NCBI GenBank assembly: GCA_031266915.1
Contig: JAISAB010000017.1
Span: 1-63,367 of the forward strand
Reading direction: 5' to 3'
Length of the DNA: 63,367 nt
Source: Rickettsiales bacterium
GTDB taxonomy: Bacteria > Pseudomonadota > Alphaproteobacteria > Rs-D84
Shown here: one piece after another, positions 5,322 through 47,277 of the stretch
Layout of the letters: every line of letters starts with the position of its first letter
Position numbering within the stretch: position 1 is the stretch's first letter
Program-made: the position numbers and the translations under genes
The notes under the pieces: generated by a model
What the model saw: the letters and a program-made list of their open reading frames with translations, nothing else
The model's database searches: none
What the model was told of the DNA's origin: nothing

Positions 5322-5457
5322 ACCGTCACCCCCGCGAAGGCGGGGGCCCATTGTGTTCGTCACACGGGCATTGTTCAAGGCTTGAATACAATGGATACCG
5401 GTTCTTTTGAAAAACAATTATCAATTGTTTTCCAAAATTCAATGCCGGTATGACGAG
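5322..5457. repeat. Palindromic element without ORF (relative of the GIY-YIG element arms)
   Basis: Left part CGTCACCCCCGCGAAGGCGG followed by CCATTGTGTTC. The right part contains GAATACAATGGATACCGG, a nested hairpin and CCGGTATGACGA. These are versions of the arms that flank the GIY-YIG gene at 31.2-31.7 kb, but here no ORF lies between them. The stretch 5226-5576 holds no gene. Confidence 0.7.
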
Positions 5458-8546: not shown

Positions 8547-8776
8547 GGCGCAACTGACGGGAATGGAACTTTTTGAACAAAAAACACGAAGTGTTTTTTG
8601 TCATCCCTGCGTAGGCAGGGATAGGGTCTATTAACCGCAACGCGCAGCGTTGCCAAGTTTTATATTTGGTTCACTTCGCTCACGGTTTAGAGACCCTATT
8701 CCGGCCTACGCCGGAATGACAAAAGTTTGTTACACAAACTTTTGTTTTAATTAAGGTACATTTATGTCGGTTGAGC
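8547..8776. repeat. MITE-like palindromic element with nested palindrome
   Basis: The left end GGCGCAACTGACGGGAATGG and the right end (reverse complement GCTCAACCGACATAAATG) form an imperfect ~35-bp terminal inverted repeat, each followed inward by AT-rich sequence ending in ACAAAA. Between them is a second palindrome of the GTCATCCCTGCG type and the hairpin ACAAAAGTTTGTTACACAAA. Shorter relatives are at 16335-16465, 53569-53654, 54109-54172 and 56767-56803. No gene is present. Confidence 0.65.
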
Positions 8777-11460: not shown

Positions 11461-11590
11461 TTATTAAACACTAGTTTATAGCGAATAGTGATTAGTGCAT
11501 AGCGGATAACGGACAGCCCTGGGGCGACAATATCCGCCCACTATAAAACTAATCACTATTCACTATAAACTATCCGCTAATGGTTATTTA
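11461..11590. repeat. Quasi-palindrome of TAGTGATTAG-type short repeats
   Basis: The left half (CTAGTTTATAGCGAATAGTG, ATTAGTGCATAGCGGATA) is mirrored by the right half (TATCCGCCCACTATAAAACT, AATCACTATTCACTATAAAC). Both are built from 7-8-base near-repeats. The same kind of block follows other gene ends at 14132-14235, 25508-25612, 39165-39245, 50738-50825 and 63273-63367. Confidence 0.7.
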
Positions 11591-16334: not shown

Positions 16335-16465
16335 TTGCGCAATTGACAGGAATGGAACTTTTTCAAACAAACCTCTGAAAGATGTTTGTCATTCCGACGT
16401 AGGCCGGAATGACAAAAGTTTGTTACACAAACTTTTGTTTTAATATAAGATACATTCCTGGCACC
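16335..16465. repeat. MITE-like palindromic element, copy 2
   Basis: GCGCAATTGACAGGAATGGA at the left and the ACAAAAGTTTGTTACACAAA hairpin with TAAGATACATTCCTGGCACC at the right match the element at 8547-8776. A GTCATTCCGACGTAGGCCGG palindrome lies inside. Confidence 0.6.
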
Positions 16466-31244: not shown

Positions 31245-31678
31245 TCACATCGTCACCCCGGCGCAGGCCGGGGTCCATTGTGTTCAAGCAGTGTTATTTT
31301 GTTTGTATTTTTCCAACAAATCGATAATTTCGCCAGATAATTCATCAAACAAATCCAACCAATTCGGATTAAATTCTATTATTCTTGCCAATTTCCAACT
31401 TCGTTTCCATTCTTTCATTTGTCGTTCGCGCTTTACCATTTTCTCCAGACTGTCATGAAACTCATAATACACAAGAAGTTTGACATCATATTTTTTGGTA
31501 AAACTTTCAAAGAATTTATTTCTGTGCTGATACATCCTCTGCGCGATATTGGACGTAGAGCCGATATAAATCGTTCCCATAGGTTTATTTGCAAGAATAT
31601 ATACAAACCCTCCAAGTTTCATACGAATTCCTCAATTTGAATACAATGGATACCGGCCTGCGCCGGTATGACGATGTG
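31245..31678. mobile_element. Palindromic element enclosing a GIY-YIG nuclease ORF
   Basis: The left arm 31246-31286 (CATCGTCACCCCGGCGCAGG, then CCGGGGTCCATTGTGTTCAA) is an inverted copy of the right arm 31637-31678 (TTGAATACAATGGATACCGG, then CCTGCGCCGGTATGACGATG). Differences are in base pairs that stay complementary within each arm's own hairpin. The nuclease ORF exactly fills the space, its stop codon lying in the left arm. Confidence 0.75.
31284..31622 (-). CDS. GIY-YIG endonuclease-like protein
   Basis: A 112-residue single-domain GIY-YIG protein of the UPF0213/YhbQ type. GFVYILANKPMGTIYIGSTS (about residues 4-23) carries the GIY..YIG signature, followed by the catalytic-region arginine NIAQRMYQHRNKFFESFTKK and the family's C-terminal YYEFHDSLEKMVKRERQMKE WKR. 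Such domains cut DNA in repair or mobility. GAGG precedes the ATG. The gene lies exactly between the arms of an inverted repeat, so it is probably the enzyme of a mobile palindrome, not a house-keeping protein. Confidence 0.88.
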   Translation of the reverse strand: MKLGGFVYILANKPMGTIYIGSTSNIAQRMYQHRNKFFESFTKKYDVKLLVYYEFHDSLEKMVKRERQMKEWKRSWKLARIIEFNPNWLDLFDELSGEIIDLLEKYKQNNTA

Positions 31679-31706
31679 AAAAGTGTGTTACGTCACAGAT
31701 ATGCTT

Positions 31707-31864: not shown

Positions 31865-32054
31865 GGGTCGGCAGCTCAGTTGGTCAGCCGCGGAGCGCTC
31901 ATAACGCTTTGGTCCGGGGTTCGCCCGTCTCGCCCGCAGCTGCGCTGCGGACAAGCCGAGGTTGGCGAAGACAACCGATGGCGCGGGAGACGGAGCGTCT
32001 CGGTCTCGGTGCCGCAAAGCGGCAACGGAACGGACGAGTCAAGGTATGTTTGTA
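31865..32054 (+). pseudogene. tRNA-CAT copy disrupted in the T-arm
   Basis: GGGTCGGCAGCTCAGTTGGT and GGAGCGCTCATAACGCTTTG match the intact tRNA at 32067, but after GGTCCGGGGTTCG the T-arm is broken by ~110 bases containing an inverted repeat (CCGTCTCGCCCGC / GCGCGGGAGACGG). GAGTC reappears afterwards. It is probably a second tRNA gene hit by a palindromic insertion. Confidence 0.65.
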
Positions 32055-32066
32055 TAAAATTTTTTC

Positions 32067-32143
32067 GGGTCGGTAGCTCAGTTGGTTAGAGCGGAGCGCT
32101 CATAACGCTTTGGTCCGGGGTTCGAGTCCCTGCCGACCCACCA
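32067..32143 (+). tRNA. tRNA-Met(CAT) or tRNA-Ile2(CAT)
   Basis: GGGTCGGTAGCTCAGTTGGT begins the gene; the anticodon loop is CTCATAA, the T-loop TTCGAGT, and CCA is encoded. The first acceptor pair (G-C) excludes a typical bacterial initiator. Elongator methionine and lysidine-modified isoleucine tRNAs cannot be told apart here. Confidence 0.9.
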
Positions 32144-32316
32144 ATTTTCGTTATCGGCAAAGCCGATTAAGAAAATTGAGTGTCTCGGCCATTGCGTCGG
32201 CAATGGACGGACTAGTCGAGTTTGCAAATCTCTCAACATAAATCACTAATGATTATTTTTTCTCTTGCATGACATGGGTCAATTTTTATAGAATGGTATC
32301 TGATGGAGAAGAAGAT

Positions 32317-35300
32317 TTGATTAAAGTCCCACGTTTTCTGCATGTTTTTGCGTTTTTGTTTATAACGCTTTTTGTCGGCAATGCCTTTGCCGCCGGCTAT
32401 ACCTGCGATACTTATAAGAAATATACTTCCTGCGTGGCGGGCAGAGCACTTAGCGGAATCACCGCTGGTAACTCCTGCAATGAGTGCGGTTCAAACGCTA
32501 CTTCGGCGTCCGGTAACACAACGACCTCTTGTTATTGCAGCAACGGTTATTGGGCGGGTTCCGGCACTATCAGTTCCGGCTGTACTCCCACCGCAAGCAG
32601 TTATACCGGAACCTGCGCGACCGTTGCGCCGGGCACGGCATGTTCGGTGGCAAAGAAGACCTGCGGAACCGGACAATATTTAAGCGCGGCCGGCAATTGC
32701 ACTGATTGTGAAAAGGGATACTATTGCCCAAATGCCAGCACGTATGAGTACACCCCGAATGGTTCAGTCCAGGGCCGCACGCAGTGTATGACCAACCGCA
32801 CGACATCCAGCACCAAGTCGACCAGTTACTCTTCATGCTATATTACCTGTGACGCCGGCAAGTACGTGGCTTCTTCAACCGCGACATCCTGCACCGATGC
32901 CCCGGCCGGTAGTTTCCGCGCCGGCCAGAAAACTTACTATCAAACTAGCTCTACGGCCAGCCAATATGGGGGGCAAACGTCATGCGCCGCGGGCTCGCAC
33001 AGCGCCGCTGGCGCCAGCGGCTGCATTGGCTGCACCAGCGGTTATATGTCCAGCGCCGGGACCAGCACAGCGACTGGCTGTACGGCGTGCACGACGATAA
33101 CTGGAAGGTATTCTTGGTCCGAGACGAAATGGAATACGGACAATACGGTTTCAAATGTATGCACAGTCAATCAGTGTGCGGTGGGATACTATAAAAGCGG
33201 CAATACTTGTCCGGCGTGTTCAGCCCTGACCGGCGTGTCGGTGGCTAACGGCGCGTACACGTCTGCGCTCGGGTCGACGGCGAACACGGCCTGCAAGTAC
33301 ACTGCGCCGGCCAAGACGATAACGGGGTGCACGTCGGTGACGTCGAACCAAGTGACCTATGGTTCTAACGGTTGGCCGACCAGCACGTATAAGGTCACGG
33401 CGAATGCAGGACATATCATATCCAATAATGACACGGCCAACGCCACATGTACGGCCTGCATTGCAGGCGAATATCGCGAGGGCGACGGCAGTACGGCGAC
33501 GGCTTGCGACACGTGTCCGACAGACTATGATGACGGCGGCACCGGTGTGACCCTTAGAACAAATTGCAAGATAAGCTGCGCCGCGGGCACACGTGTCGGG
33601 ACTGCGAACGACATATGCAGAACCAGCACAGGATACGGTTGCGCATTGCATACCGTGAATGCTGGAAGTATTTCTTCGTCAAGCTATTGCACAGCCTGCA
33701 ACAACGCGGCTACGGACTGCACCAGTTATACCCGCGGCGCCGGAACCACTAACAGCGCGTCCGCATGCCCCCTGACAGTTGTTGCGACCGGTGTGCCGGG
33801 CGGCAAGTATGTCAGCAGCAACGGCACTACGTCAGCAAATTGCAGCAGCGACTGCGCGGCTGGTTATTATGGGGCTGCCGGAAATTTGCGCACATCCAAT
33901 TCATGCGATGGCAAATGTGCTACGGGTTCGCACAGCGCGGATGGCGCCAGCGGCTGTATATTCTGCACCGCCGGGACAACTACGTCTGGAACAGGAACCA
34001 AGACCTCGACCGGCTGCACCGTGTCTTGTGGGATAGATGGCGTATATAGCTGGACCACACCATCTTGGTCCGCCAATACCGTTTCCAACTTGTGTACGGT
34101 CAATACCTGCGTGGCCGGACGATACAAGAGCGGCAACACATGTCCGCAATGTCTAAACAATACATACAGTTCGGCCGGCGCGACGTTGTGCGCGTCTTGC
34201 AACGATGGATACTCGATCAGTGGTACGAACGTTGACGACCATAACAGCAGCACGGACTGCAAAATCTATTGCGACCCGAACACGACTGTTGCGACGGCTG
34301 GTAAAAAGTGTACATCCTGCGCCGCTGGAACCGGAAACTCGGGCAACACGGTAACTCAGGGCGACACGGGCCCGACTTGTAGCGTACTTAGTTATACCTG
34401 CGTCGCGGGCGAATACCTGCCTGCTGGCGAGACCAGCTGCGATACGTGTAAAGCTGGTCATTTCTGTCCGGGCGGTACGCCATATAATTATAGCGCCACT
34501 CAGAACCAAGGCATGACGGAGTGCGTCAAAGGCTCGCACAGCGGCGATGGCGCCAGCGCCTGTACGCCCTGCGCCGGCGGTGTTACGACGCCCGGAACGG
34601 CGACCAAATCGACGAACGGATGCAGCGTTAATTGTGGGAATATAACGGGATTAGATGCTTGGAAACAGCCGGGATGGTCGTCGAACAATACGGTTTCCGA
34701 TTTGTGTAAGCTCGATTATTGCTTGACCGGACGCTATAAAAGCGGCGAAACATGTCCCGAGTGTTCGAACAAGCCGACGGCGGCAACGTATACAGGCACT
34801 GCGGACAGCAATGCATGTCCTTGGTCATTGACGTGCAGTGCGGGCAAATACTTTGTTCACAACACGGACGAAAAGTTGCGGGCATGCAGCAGCGAATGTG
34901 TGGATGGAAAATACTGCGAGGGCGTGACGGCCTATCGTTCGTCGACGACAAACCTCGGTCTTTCGGATTGTCCGGCGAACTATGACGACGGCGGTACGAA
35001 ATTAACAAAACAGGCCGACTGCAAATGGCAGACCACAGCTGGCACGTATGTGAAGAATGCGAGAGCCACGACGGCGACGCCATGCGATGCCGGCTATGCA
35101 TGTCCGTCCGCATTGATTTCTTATGGCGAAACGGGCGAAATAACGCAATGCACCAACAATACATATTCGACCGGCAGCGCCGAGATGTGCACGGGATGTC
35201 TGACTGGTTATTCCATCAGCGGCACGACCGCTGCCGACCATAACGAATTGGCTGATTGTAAAAAAGAATGCGACTCCGGCACATATTTGGCAACCAAGAA

Positions 35301-38300
35301 CGATCCCTCTTGCACGGATGTGGGCAATGGATACTGGGCCGCCAAGACGTCCAACATCTCGCAGGGAACCACCAGCGCGCGTACCCCCTGTGATGCCGAC
35401 GACGCCAGAAACAGAATCATCGGCAGCGACAGCGGACGCGGCAGTCGTGCCAGCTGTTATTCGGTCTGCCCGACCCCAAAGGATCTTCTGAATAAGATCC
35501 TAGAGGTTGTTGGCACCGCGACGACTGTTAACCTCAAGGAATATTTTATCGAGGCAACGTCCGAATATCCCGTTTGCACGTATACCGCCAGCTGCTTATC
35601 GACCTATTCGGCTTATGGCCAAAATACCGAAAATCCGCAATGCTTGTTTTCGACGGAATGTCCCCCGAATCATTACTGTAGTCCAGACCCGATTCCATGC
35701 CCAAGCGACGGTAAAAACGCTGGCAAAAACAACGCGGGCGATACATCTATATATGATTGTTATGTGACAACGAAATATTCGAATTATCCGAATGGCGAGG
35801 GAGAATCCACATGCTATTACACCAGCGGCGCGGATGGCTCGGCGCTTTATAATACAAGTTGCCAAATCACACCGAAATCTTGTGAAGCTGGATATTATCA
35901 TTTGAATGGCAATGCGTGCAGCCCAGTAGAAGACGGTTTCTTCAGCCCAGCCGGCAATATCAATCAGAACCAATGCCCAAAATTGAACAACAACACTATT
36001 CCGGCCAGCGGCAGCGACGATGGCTCTGATTCGGGCATAACCGAGCGCGACAGCGCCACCGACTGTTATTATTCATGCGCCATAAACGTCGCGCATTCGA
36101 CATCTGTGACGGCGGCGCAGAACAAGGTTTATTTTAACAACATAGATTATCCGGCATGTTCGTTCCAGGTAATTTGCGACAACGGCTATCATATAGCCGG
36201 CAACAGCAACAATACCGCGAATCCGATATGCGATGCCAACCAATATACAATTATGCTGAATAAAAACGGCGGCGCCGGTTCGGTCGACCTCAGCCGTGAC
36301 TGCGTGTTCGACAGCGGGTCGTGCCAGCTGCCTGAAAACAACGCGCTGACGCAGGACGGCTATACATCGGCGGGATATTGGTGTTCCGACGCGGGCGGCG
36401 GTCTGCCTTGTTATACGGCCGGGTCCGTGGTGACGACGAATATATCGCCGAATGGTACTGCGCATACGCTGTTCGCGAAATGGACGCCAAGGGTTTACAC
36501 CGTGACGCTGGACCACCAGAGCGCGTCGCAGGCTGGCGCGCCGGAAACGTTCTATCTGAAATACGCAAACGACTGGTATTCGGACGCGGGTGCAGCAACG
36601 ACGCTCTCCGCGCTGACAACCAAGCCGACGCGCGGCGGATATGCGTTCGTCGGATATTACACCGCGCCGAACGCGGGCGGGGTTCAAGTCGTCGATTCCA
36701 ACGGCAACTTCATAAAATCCACGGACGTGTTGACCATGACTACGTCTTCGCCGGCCAAAATATATGCGGCATGGTCTGTCGGAACGACGCACTGCGATGC
36801 GGGCCAGTACTATACCGGTACAGGCACCGACTGCGCGAAATGCTTGGAAAACAATTACTGTCCGGACGGCGACTATACCACAGACACTGGCAAGGCCGCG
36901 GGTTTGGTCCCATGTCCCAACGGCGGCGCGTCTGCCGAGGGCGCGGATTCCGCCGGCAAGTGTTACAAGCCGGGCCTGCAGTACAATGCGACGCATGGCT
37001 CTGGCACCCAGCGATGCTTCCATACCAGCGGCAGCGGCACGAACGCGATTTATGACACGAACTGCGATTACAAGGTCATTCAGTATTGCAATATTGGCCA
37101 TTATTATGACAGCGGGGTGGATTGTACCGAGGTTGGCGCGGGCTATTACAGCGCGGCGGATGACAAGACGCGCGAGTCTTGTCCGAACGGCGGCACGACC
37201 ACAACAACGATCAGCGGAGTAATCCAGGAATGTTACAAGATCGGTTTGGATTATACCGCGGCAAACGGTGCAGGAACGCAACGCTGTTTCTATTCCAGCG
37301 GCGCCGGTTCTACTGCCAAATATGAAAACAGTTGCGACACCAAGCGGATTTCGACCTGCAAAGAGGGATACTGGCGCGAAAACGCGAACGATTCCGACTG
37401 CGCGCCCGCCGGGTATAATTATTACAGCCTTGCGACAACGGTTATGCGTGAACCTTGTCCGAACAGCGGTTTGACCAGCATCAACAACGCCGCCGCGGCC
37501 GGTCAGTGCTACAAGCCGGGCCTGCCGTACATAGCGACGTATGGGTCGGGCACCAAGTTATGTTTCTATAACGTAACCGGCGACAGCTATGATACGAATT
37601 GCGGAACGATTACGATTACGTATTGCAGCGCTGGATATTATCGCGAAACGGTCAATTCCGAGGATTGTTCCGAGGCCGGAATCGGATTCTACAGCCCGAT
37701 TGCGGACATCGCCAACTATCCTTGCGAAAACGGGGGTATAACCGTCGGCACGACCAGCAGCGGCGCATCCGAATGCTTTTTGGAAAGGGTATCGTGCGCC
37801 ATAGCAAACGGTTTAGGCGAACATAAGTGCTATTATTCCAGCGGGGTCGGCGCGACTGCCGATTATGCCGCGAACTGCACGTCTTGCCTGGTGACGGGCT
37901 GCGCCGGTGGATTTTCCCAGGTCGGCAACACATGCGTGTTCTGTTCGGAAAATCATTTTTGCGGCGGCGGCACCCAAGAGAACTGCGGCAGCGTCGGCGA
38001 CGGAACATACGTGTACTCGGATGCCGGAACGACCAGCTCGTCGGGTTGTTACAAGGCGTGTGCGCTGGGAATGAACTCGGCAACCATGAAGGGACGTGAT
38101 TATTACATCGGCGCCGATACATGCGAAATCGCGACCTGCGCGGAACGCTATGAATTGGACGGCGGCGTGTGCAAAACTTGCGCCGCAGGCAGTTTCTGCG
38201 ACGGAACCGGCGGCGGTACGGGCGGCGGCAAAAGCTGCGCCAGCTTGGGCGACGGCAGTTGGGAATTCTCGGCGGCGGGCGCGGCCAGCCAGAACGACTG

Positions 38301-39108
38301 TTACAGAACATGTCCGGAATACGCCATCACATACGGAACTGCGGTGCCGGATAGCCTGACGGAATACTACCCTGATGCATGCACGTATTCATGCAAATCC
38401 ATCACTGGAAATACCGGCGTGATTATCGGCGGCGCCTGTCTGGAACAAAGCTGTTCGAACACGTATGAAATGGTTGGTGGCGTCTGCAAGCCTTGCGACC
38501 GGGACAAAGCCTTGTCGTACAACACCAGCGGAAACTGCGAAATCGCCAGCTGCGTGGCGGGCTATCACCCGAACGGACAGTCTTGCGAGGGAAATGTCAT
38601 CGAATGCCTGGCACCCAATGCGGACGAAGCGACCCAGACATGGAACGCTGCCAAGAAAGCCTTTGGCATATGCACAATCAAGACTTGCGCGCCGGGGTAT
38701 CATGTGTCTTCGAACGCCTGCGTCATCGACGAACAGGAATGCGTCGTCGAAAACGGAACGGGATACAAGGAATGGGATTCTGCCAAGAACAGATGGGGCG
38801 ACTGCGTCGTTACATACTGCAAGCCGGGATATTCGTTCGACCCCAGCGAGACGAATGAACTGACCAAGCCTTGCGGCCAATGCAAGAACAAGTTCAGCGT
38901 GCTGGGCGAACTTGCGGTCAGCAGCTATACCGCCGGATGCGACATCGCCGCGTGCATGTACCAGGGCGAAATGTATAATCTGGAAGGCGGAGAATGCGTG
39001 CCGATTTGCGATGTCAATGGGTACGAGGATGAAACCGGAACCATGAAATGGAATTCTGGGTCCAAGAAGTGCGTCCGCCAATGCAAGGAAGGCTTTACAG
39101 CCTGGTAA
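32317..39108 (+). CDS. Giant exported cysteine-rich repeat protein
   Basis: About 2263 residues from a TTG at 32317 (GGAG eight bases upstream; an in-frame ATG at 32269 would add 16 residues and bury the signal). Signal peptide MIKVPRFLHVFAFLFITLFV GNAFA. The mature protein is a chain of cysteine modules: CPxC pairs, AGxYY/GYYCP, CxxGTxxS, YKSGNTCPxC, KCYKPGL and QRCFYSSGAG, with well over 150 cysteines. Two InlB-like beta repeats (VYTVTLDHQSASQAGAPETF, KPTRGGYAFVGYYTAP) lie around residues 1310-1490. No anchor is visible at the C-terminus (RQCKEGFTAW). Surface adhesion or a disulfide-knit coat is inferred. It is much longer than its relatives here. Confidence 0.85.
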   Translation: MIKVPRFLHVFAFLFITLFVGNAFAAGYTCDTYKKYTSCVAGRALSGITAGNSCNECGSNATSASGNTTTSCYCSNGYWAGSGTISSGCTPTASSYTGTCATVAPGTACSVAKKTCGTGQYLSAAGNCTDCEKGYYCPNASTYEYTPNGSVQGRTQCMTNRTTSSTKSTSYSSCYITCDAGKYVASSTATSCTDAPAGSFRAGQKTYYQTSSTASQYGGQTSCAAGSHSAAGASGCIGCTSGYMSSAGTSTATGCTACTTITGRYSWSETKWNTDNTVSNVCTVNQCAVGYYKSGNTCPACSALTGVSVANGAYTSALGSTANTACKYTAPAKTITGCTSVTSNQVTYGSNGWPTSTYKVTANAGHIISNNDTANATCTACIAGEYREGDGSTATACDTCPTDYDDGGTGVTLRTNCKISCAAGTRVGTANDICRTSTGYGCALHTVNAGSISSSSYCTACNNAATDCTSYTRGAGTTNSASACPLTVVATGVPGGKYVSSNGTTSANCSSDCAAGYYGAAGNLRTSNSCDGKCATGSHSADGASGCIFCTAGTTTSGTGTKTSTGCTVSCGIDGVYSWTTPSWSANTVSNLCTVNTCVAGRYKSGNTCPQCLNNTYSSAGATLCASCNDGYSISGTNVDDHNSSTDCKIYCDPNTTVATAGKKCTSCAAGTGNSGNTVTQGDTGPTCSVLSYTCVAGEYLPAGETSCDTCKAGHFCPGGTPYNYSATQNQGMTECVKGSHSGDGASACTPCAGGVTTPGTATKSTNGCSVNCGNITGLDAWKQPGWSSNNTVSDLCKLDYCLTGRYKSGETCPECSNKPTAATYTGTADSNACPWSLTCSAGKYFVHNTDEKLRACSSECVDGKYCEGVTAYRSSTTNLGLSDCPANYDDGGTKLTKQADCKWQTTAGTYVKNARATTATPCDAGYACPSALISYGETGEITQCTNNTYSTGSAEMCTGCLTGYSISGTTAADHNELADCKKECDSGTYLATKNDPSCTDVGNGYWAAKTSNISQGTTSARTPCDADDARNRIIGSDSGRGSRASCYSVCPTPKDLLNKILEVVGTATTVNLKEYFIEATSEYPVCTYTASCLSTYSAYGQNTENPQCLFSTECPPNHYCSPDPIPCPSDGKNAGKNNAGDTSIYDCYVTTKYSNYPNGEGESTCYYTSGADGSALYNTSCQITPKSCEAGYYHLNGNACSPVEDGFFSPAGNINQNQCPKLNNNTIPASGSDDGSDSGITERDSATDCYYSCAINVAHSTSVTAAQNKVYFNNIDYPACSFQVICDNGYHIAGNSNNTANPICDANQYTIMLNKNGGAGSVDLSRDCVFDSGSCQLPENNALTQDGYTSAGYWCSDAGGGLPCYTAGSVVTTNISPNGTAHTLFAKWTPRVYTVTLDHQSASQAGAPETFYLKYANDWYSDAGAATTLSALTTKPTRGGYAFVGYYTAPNAGGVQVVDSNGNFIKSTDVLTMTTSSPAKIYAAWSVGTTHCDAGQYYTGTGTDCAKCLENNYCPDGDYTTDTGKAAGLVPCPNGGASAEGADSAGKCYKPGLQYNATHGSGTQRCFHTSGSGTNAIYDTNCDYKVIQYCNIGHYYDSGVDCTEVGAGYYSAADDKTRESCPNGGTTTTTISGVIQECYKIGLDYTAANGAGTQRCFYSSGAGSTAKYENSCDTKRISTCKEGYWRENANDSDCAPAGYNYYSLATTVMREPCPNSGLTSINNAAAAGQCYKPGLPYIATYGSGTKLCFYNVTGDSYDTNCGTITITYCSAGYYRETVNSEDCSEAGIGFYSPIADIANYPCENGGITVGTTSSGASECFLERVSCAIANGLGEHKCYYSSGVGATADYAANCTSCLVTGCAGGFSQVGNTCVFCSENHFCGGGTQENCGSVGDGTYVYSDAGTTSSSGCYKACALGMNSATMKGRDYYIGADTCEIATCAERYELDGGVCKTCAAGSFCDGTGGGTGGGKSCASLGDGSWEFSAAGAASQNDCYRTCPEYAITYGTAVPDSLTEYYPDACTYSCKSITGNTGVIIGGACLEQSCSNTYEMVGGVCKPCDRDKALSYNTSGNCEIASCVAGYHPNGQSCEGNVIECLAPNADEATQTWNAAKKAFGICTIKTCAPGYHVSSNACVIDEQECVVENGTGYKEWDSAKNRWGDCVVTYCKPGYSFDPSETNELTKPCGQCKNKFSVLGELAVSSYTAGCDIAACMYQGEMYNLEGGECVPICDVNGYEDETGTMKWNSGSKKCVRQCKEGFTAW

Positions 39109-46636: not shown

Positions 46637-46677
46637 ACAACCCGCCCTTCAGTATGGGATAATGTTCGTCGTTATTT

Positions 46678-47239
46678 TTACCTGCCCCGGTTACGGGGCG
46701 GGAAAGAGTTGGCCTGCGAGTGTAACGAGCTTGGCAACTCTTGGGTGGGGTAACAACGGCGGCGGCGATGGGAAAATACATGACCAATCACTCGGATAAA
46801 ATAATCCGCGCAAGGGAATTGCGCAAAAACGCGTCAGATGCCGAAATAAAATTCTGGTATGCGATAAACGACAATCAACTTGGGGTAAAATTCCGCCGCC
46901 AGCGCCCAATCGGACCATATTATGCAGATTTTGTTTGTCTTGAACAAAAATTAATTATAGAATTAGACGGCGACCAGCATGCGCGGAACATAAATTACGA
47001 TAACGCGCGAACCGATTATATGACCGAACTTGGGTATAGATTGATACGAATCCAGAACGGTTATATTTACAAGGAACTGGATGCAGTGATAGGGCACTTG
47101 CGCTTGATACTGAATGGTGAATTGGACGCGAACGAATATTTCAAAAGTAAATATTCTTGATTCACCCCACCCAAGAGTTGCCAAGCTCGTTACACTCGCA
47201 GGCCAACTCTATCCCGCCCCGCACAGCGGGTCAGGTAAA
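46678..47239. mobile_element. 73-bp inverted repeat enclosing a DUF559 ORF
   Basis: The left arm 46678-46750 (TTTACCTGCCCCGG, AGAGTTGGCCTGCGAGTGTA, ACGAGCTTGGCAACTCTTGG) is a near-perfect inverted copy of the right arm 47163-47239 (CCACCCAAGAGTTGCCAAGC, TCGTTACACTCGCAGGCCAA). Only a few positions near the tip hairpin differ. The ORF between starts ~30 bases inside the left arm and stops two bases before the right arm. Located between dacC and holB. Confidence 0.82.
46780..47160 (+). CDS. DUF559 endonuclease-like protein
   Basis: A 126-residue protein of the DUF559/Vsr-like PD-(D/E)XK family: IIRARELRKNASDAEIKFWY, VKFRRQRPIGPYYADFVCLE, QKLIIELDGDQHARN (catalytic-type IELDGxxH), and YRLIRIQNGYIYKELDAVIG. 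It is related to the domain inserted in tsaB (RNMTLAEKKFWYAVNNKKLG, IADFVCLEKKLIVEIDGALH). ATG 46780 is preferred (GGGA seven bases upstream). It sits inside an inverted repeat and is probably the enzyme that mobilises or maintains it. Confidence 0.88.
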   Translation: MTNHSDKIIRARELRKNASDAEIKFWYAINDNQLGVKFRRQRPIGPYYADFVCLEQKLIIELDGDQHARNINYDNARTDYMTELGYRLIRIQNGYIYKELDAVIGHLRLILNGELDANEYFKSKYS

Positions 47240-47277
47240 ATATCCCACCTCCGGCACAGCGGGGCAGGCAAATAAAA

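Follow-up and report, generated by a model that had tools for sequence, protein, structure and literature searches.

It has been reported that CGTC REPs "apparently lack a dedicated transposase" (Di Nocera et al. 2013, PMC3733652). Because no such enzyme was found, the spread of these repeats, including dRS3 of Neisseria and the RPE repeats of Rickettsia, has been an open question since their definition in 2013. Members of the CGTC-1 family, which takes in dRS3 and RPE-6 (Rickettsia), have an 8-bp stem, a 4-nt loop, a CCA tail and a CGTC (or TGTC/CCTC) tag at one end; the complementary stem positions 1 and 2 are "almost invariably" AT, and the repeats are multi-copy and occur mostly as head-to-head dimers (PMC3733652). 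In the case of GTAG REPs, RAYT cuts at the tag (PMC3733652).

The locus described here lies in a 63,367-nucleotide stretch of DNA from a Rickettsiales bacterium (the window) and shares features with several known systems. Its arms have the CGTC tag, 8-bp stem, 4-nt loop, CCA tail and outward pairing of CGTC-1 REPs; however, the published repeats are gene-less, whereas the window pair encloses a GIY-YIG gene. The logic of RAYT, REPIN and REPtron systems, in which one protein-coding copy stands between palindromes and is accompanied by many gene-less dimers, is also found here, but RAYTs and REPtrons combine a GTAG tag with an HUH enzyme, whereas the window element combines a CGTC (or TGTC) tag with an unrelated GIY-YIG enzyme. 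Insertion sequences carry a transposase gene and make target-site duplications of constant length; the gene between the window arms is GIY-YIG. In GIY-YIG homing endonucleases (I-TevI, I-BmoI and free-standing phage enzymes), this catalytic domain likewise occurs in a mobile context, and gene-bearing versions replace gene-less ones at one site. Unlike these enzymes, the window element is intergenic, has no intron or intein and no second domain (NUMOD), and ends in palindromic REPs.

A GIY-YIG gene between two CGTC hairpins

An inverted-repeat search of the window identified a pair of arms of 43 nt each, 88% complementary and separated by 349 nt. The locus and the other CGTC-type hairpins of the window are as follows:

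31245 to 31287, plus strand: left arm, with the CGTC-tagged hairpin CGTC-ACCCCGGC-GCAG-GCCGGGGT-CCA at 31252-31274, tag outward
31284 to 31622, minus strand: GIY-YIG nuclease gene of clade A (see below), 112 aa, with residues Y, Y-G, R, H, E and N present
31637 to 31679, minus strand: right arm, with the CGTC-tagged hairpin CGTC-ATACCGGC-GCAG-GCCGGTAT-CCA at 31650-31672, tag outward
5325 to 5347, plus strand: single CGTC-type hairpin (CGTCACCCCCGCGAAGGCGGGGGCCCAT)
8600 to 8720, no strand assigned: ORF-less outward CGTC-type hairpin pair with a 75-bp spacer and ATAGGGTCTATTAACC tails
16388 to 16413, no strand assigned: single near-perfect CGTC-type palindrome (GTCATTCCGACGTAGGCCGGAATGAC)

The left arm overlaps the ORF by 4 nt. 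An earlier note on this DNA had described 42-nt inverted arms around the GIY-YIG gene; the arms are there, at 43 nt, and its statement that they differ in ways that keep each internal hairpin paired is borne out. Two stem positions differ between the arms, and the changes are paired within each arm (ACCCCGGC/GCCGGGGT on the left, ATACCGGC/GCCGGTAT on the right), so the sequence changed but the hairpin was kept. When folded as single-stranded DNA, both arms beat 200 of 200 dinucleotide shuffles (z -3.9 for the left and -4.5 for the right). The core CCGGCGCAGGCCGG has six matches in the window at up to two mismatches, against 0.83 expected.

The window hairpins agree with the published description of CGTC-1 REPs. 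Both have the CGTC tag, an 8-bp stem with a 4-nt loop and an unpaired CCA tail, with tags outward, and both continue as CCATTG. Stem positions 1 and 2 are AT in the right arm and AC, paired with GT, in the left. In the stretches of the window genome that were examined, outward pairs are multi-copy and have several tail types, most of them without a GIY-YIG gene.

This genome is a 1.09-Mb draft (26 contigs, 95% complete) with six GIY-YIG matches. Two small GIY-YIG genes lie between CGTC-type arms, namely the window copy and G000:C4:69326-69758 (L009), whose proteins are 38% identical over 91 residues. Their tails differ (CCATTGTGTTCAA in the window copy, ATAGGGTCTATTAACC in L009), and gene-less outward dimers exist for both. 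ORF-less copies in trans, proposed in the earlier note as something to look for, are therefore present. One of them, G000:C1:16695-16787, has a 47-bp core, and its two unequal ends, GTCACCCCGGC..CCATTGTGTTCAA and GTCATACCGGC..TATCCA, are both also those of the window element. Six gene-less dimers have a 71-77-bp core and the ATAGGGTCTATTAACC tail, and the ORF-bearing copy of the family of the 8600-8720 dimer is L009, elsewhere in the genome. The fixed-rule hairpin search found no closely flanking CGTC hairpin at the remaining GIY-YIG genes.

Several other features were observed. Two GIY-YIG genes without CGTC arms adjoin tRNA genes (L011 1397-1876 and L013 1315-1750; Pro and Leu), and the one next to tRNA-Leu is broken. 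Similar G+C-rich repeats of about 125 bp occur beside the tRNA-Pro copy and in the window (about 31865-32143), before tRNA-Met at 32067-32143, where the repeat adjoins a partial tRNA-like sequence. L009-type copies (L149, on G000:C4, and the G000 dimers) have A+T-rich stem-loops outside the tag, e.g. AAAAGTTTG..CAAACTTTT, and their insertion may thus favour terminators. A+T-rich inverted repeats typified by TAGTGATTAGTGCATAGT, another repeat family of this genome, are found at window positions 11472, 25514, 39201, 50731 and 63289, and a 2279-aa cysteine-rich ORF with no Pfam match lies near the element (32269-39108).

The window protein matched only GIY-YIG (55.2 bits, E 8.9e-15) and T5orf172 in Pfam; this search found no HUH motif or catalytic-Tyr transposase of the IS200/IS605 type. 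In 14 clade-A proteins, that of the window among them, the GIY-YIG site shows no variation at Y, Y-G, R, H, E and N. Small GIY-YIG proteins of the Slx1/UPF0213 kind are the closest solved structures in both sequence and fold: the sequence search returned UPF0213 1zg2 (2e-10), and a predicted clade-A model (pLDDT 94) matches UPF0213 structures and Slx1. Slx1 cuts branched DNA, but no Slx1/UPF0213 protein is known to be carried by an element. A group I intron endonuclease model matched residues 5-36 only, below cut-off, and phage records contained distant relatives only.

Association of CGTC hairpins with one nuclease clade

Occurrence of the arrangement was assessed in a class-level sample of 115 genomes, in which those other than the window genome each represent a different family, except one from the window's own family. 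The surroundings of 90 small GIY-YIG domains were read. Hairpins were called in these and in controls by the same rule (GTCA, stem of 8-9, at most one mispair), and a pair consisted of outward-tagged CGTC hairpins within 220 bp on both sides. Under this fixed rule, on which the counts depend and which makes them lower bounds for diverged arms, pairs flanked 13 of 90 GIY-YIG domains and 0 of 211 small ORFs (p 8e-8), and a hairpin on at least one side was present at 24 and 3 of these, respectively (p 3e-11). Random positions had hairpins on both sides once in 15,487. Any flanking inverted repeat was detected at 32/89 GIY-YIG domains and 1/193 control ORFs. According to the earlier note, the association would fall if such repeats were equally frequent around random genes; the opposite was observed, with palindromic arms strongly enriched at small GIY-YIG and DUF559 genes (the latter described below) but not at controls. 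Counting from ORF ends gave 3-6 of 78-79 GIY-YIG ORFs against 1 of 683-724 other ORFs, which is too low, as long ORF calls extend into the hairpin sequence; domain-centred tests were used for this reason.

A collection of 84,980 species supplied a second set of 80 loci, for which protein similarity was the only criterion; a five-row profile was used because a 14-row profile was too diverse. CGTC hairpins were present on both sides of 40 of these loci, compared to none of 111 control ORFs, and on at least one side of 65. Phylum labels, which may be individually wrong since the loci are mostly from metagenome bins, included Calditrichota, Elusimicrobia, Nitrospirota, Chloroflexota, Planctomycetota, Omnitrophota, Bacteroidota, candidate phyla and others. 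The pairing was also found in isolates (Niveispirillum lacus, Sphingomonas sp. Leaf412 and Maritalea porphyrae).

A tree of the 90 proteins contained a 25-row clade (X) and clade A (support 98/86), with both window-genome proteins in the latter. A palindrome of any kind on at least one side was present in 34 of 49 non-window clade A members, whereas none was seen at the separate GIY-YIG clade X (0/25; p 1e-9). CGTC hairpins on both sides were confined to clade A in this comparison (13/49, versus 0/39 in clades B and X; p 4e-4). Within clade A, arm loop types were mixed and only loosely tracked the protein tree, i.e., coevolution was weak. Such mixing would be expected if the tag and the structure matter more for recognition than the stem sequence does.

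REPs are mostly downstream of genes and probably transcribed (PMC3733652), and the palindromes could accordingly be terminators or mRNA-stabilizing hairpins that gather around isolated genes and have no role in mobility. We consider this very improbable: isolated control ORFs were rarely flanked (CGTC hairpins on both sides of 1/83, any inverted repeat at 2/83), the gene is enclosed on both sides with tags outward, and hairpins and gene are jointly missing at the empty sites described below, which already disfavours such a reading.

Presence and absence at orthologous sites

Comparison of related genomes showed that the unit moves. Seven species of one genus were compared at the gap between hemH and hemJ (names assigned by inspection of translated flanks); the element was present in two of them, and no hairpin was found between these genes in the other five. 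In Azospirillum lipoferum 4B, the sufB-sufC gap contains a REP dimer, a GIY-YIG gene and another REP dimer; the joined flanks match unbroken, with 84-89% identity, in A. ramasamyi, A. oryzae and Azospirillum sp. B510, from which the element is absent. At a third site, in the genus of genome G039, the element is forward in three species, and a fourth has it reversed and with different inner ends; a fifth species has a gene-less dimer of the same hairpin and a sixth a gene-less dimer of another CGTC hairpin. The GIY-YIG gene at this site is under purifying selection (dN/dS 0.04-0.11). Orthologous sites are thus empty, occupied by ORF-less dimers or occupied by the element in either orientation, and on this evidence from aligned genomes the unit is mobile. 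The GIY-YIG element of A. lipoferum has a gene-less DUF559-type palindrome as its counterpart in the sufB-sufC gap of Azospirillum sp. B510 (L350, NC_013857.1), as if this gap were a common target.

No target-site duplication was detected over 55 elements, whose exact junctions are not readable at empty sites because the intergenic DNA there is too diverged. The base preceding GTC was C or T at 104 of 110 element ends, giving CGTC or TGTC tags.

The earlier note had proposed a general mobility strategy of hairpin DNA plus a small nuclease. Movement of the unit agrees with this proposal; that the GIY-YIG nuclease drives the movement and cuts the hairpin is what we infer. Given that the pairing recurs across many phyla and is present in some relatives only, this nuclease is the best candidate for the missing mover of CGTC REPs. 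In our assessment, the window locus is probably a mobile CGTC-palindrome element with its own Slx1-like nuclease that spreads by cut-and-copy. Two outward-tagged CGTC REP hairpins and a minimal GIY-YIG gene would form one very small mobile element. The nuclease would recognize the palindrome extruded as a hairpin or cruciform and cut it, and repair of the cut would copy in another element copy through the arms. ORF-bearing and ORF-less versions could then swap and spread in a homing-like cycle, with ORF-less dimers in the non-autonomous role that REPINs play alongside RAYTs. Copying through the arms would explain the swaps at one site, the absent duplication, the matched arms and the gene-less dimers. 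The swaps at the G039-genus site are compatible with homing, in which a site without the nuclease is cut and a copy is introduced by repair.

Copying through arms does not explain arrival at hairpin-less sites, where a RAYT-like, single-strand route may operate. By analogy with IS200/IS605 and RAYT/REPIN systems, the GIY-YIG enzyme could nick beside the CGTC tag in single-stranded DNA and the unit be pasted elsewhere. The anatomy of tag, hairpin and tail, the outward dimers and the lack of target duplication resemble GTAG REPs, and insertion at hairpin-less sites needs some insertion step. However, replacement of versions at the G039-genus site fits arm copying better, and to our knowledge GIY-YIG enzymes do not hold DNA covalently and rejoin it. 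Such excision and insertion is therefore unlikely, and cut-and-copy by the enclosed nuclease is preferred.

Palindrome families of other nucleases

DUF559 genes of the same genomes were also found between inverted arms (31 of 39 loci, L197-L236). The best-scoring arms were palindromes in which CCCTCTCCC..GGGAGAGGG is followed by TTGGGGTGAGGG, and CGTC hairpins flanked none of 40 DUF559 genes on both sides. The window contains one such gene:

46741 to 47160: DUF559 gene, with 79-nt arms of their own type at 46673-46751 and 47164-47242

The earlier note had placed the GIY-YIG gene and an unrelated nuclease in the same palindrome architecture. The DUF559 gene is probably the one it compared, and since its arms are of a different, longer palindrome type, the two architectures are analogous, not the same. 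In the smaller clade B of GIY-YIG proteins, CCTGAGC..GTCGAAGG-type palindromes were present in six members (L059, L068, L080, L090, L097 and L098), and no CGTC pair was found in the class sample under the fixed rule. With arms of different families at DUF559, clade A and clade B genes, palindrome family follows nuclease family. The independent capture by palindromes suggested in the earlier note is thus replaced by a picture that looks more like cognate pairing than random capture.

These differences also bear on whether the GIY-YIG genes are merely carried or tolerated between CGTC REPs that an unrelated enzyme moves in trans. Many CGTC dimers are gene-less, and 5 of 20 CGTC-1-rich genomes had no listed clade-A gene, as such passengers would predict. 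A passenger role is nevertheless quite improbable, considering the specificity for one nuclease clade, with no such hairpin pairs around the 25 GIY-YIG genes of the other clade and hardly any around control ORFs, the different palindrome family at DUF559, the strong purifying selection on the gene, and the finding of Di Nocera et al. that no other transposase is associated with CGTC REPs (PMC3733652).

The proposal that the enclosed nuclease moves its own palindromes may apply more widely. GIY-YIG clade A, clade B and DUF559 could form a broad, previously unrecognized class in which each serves as the dedicated mover for one palindrome family, cutting extruded hairpins instead of using transposase chemistry, and the gene-less repeats abundant in many genomes would be non-autonomous offspring; we put the chances of this generalization at about even. 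In the open-access literature, preprints and most subscription papers being outside the scope of this search, no paper was found that connects GIY-YIG or DUF559 with REPs. Given a clade-specific nuclease partner, the question of CGTC REP spread can be tested with a single small protein and a synthetic hairpin. Such a partner would also assign a function to many small genes whose annotation goes no further than GIY-YIG nuclease family or DUF559 protein, and, if the DUF559 pairing holds, much bacterial palindromic repeat DNA may trace to a few small nucleases.

At the genome level, clade A was present in 15 of 20 CGTC-1-rich genomes versus 18 of 95 others, and DUF559 in 12/20 versus 18/95, while clade X showed no co-occurrence (4/20 versus 16/95); since DUF559 co-occurs with CGTC-1 almost as clade A does, such co-occurrence is weak evidence. 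In addition, a clade-A-like GIY-YIG gene of Sinorhizobium meliloti (CP090106.1, L345) has no CGTC hairpins, and CCTGTG..CACAGG palindromes, possibly another palindrome family, lie nearby.
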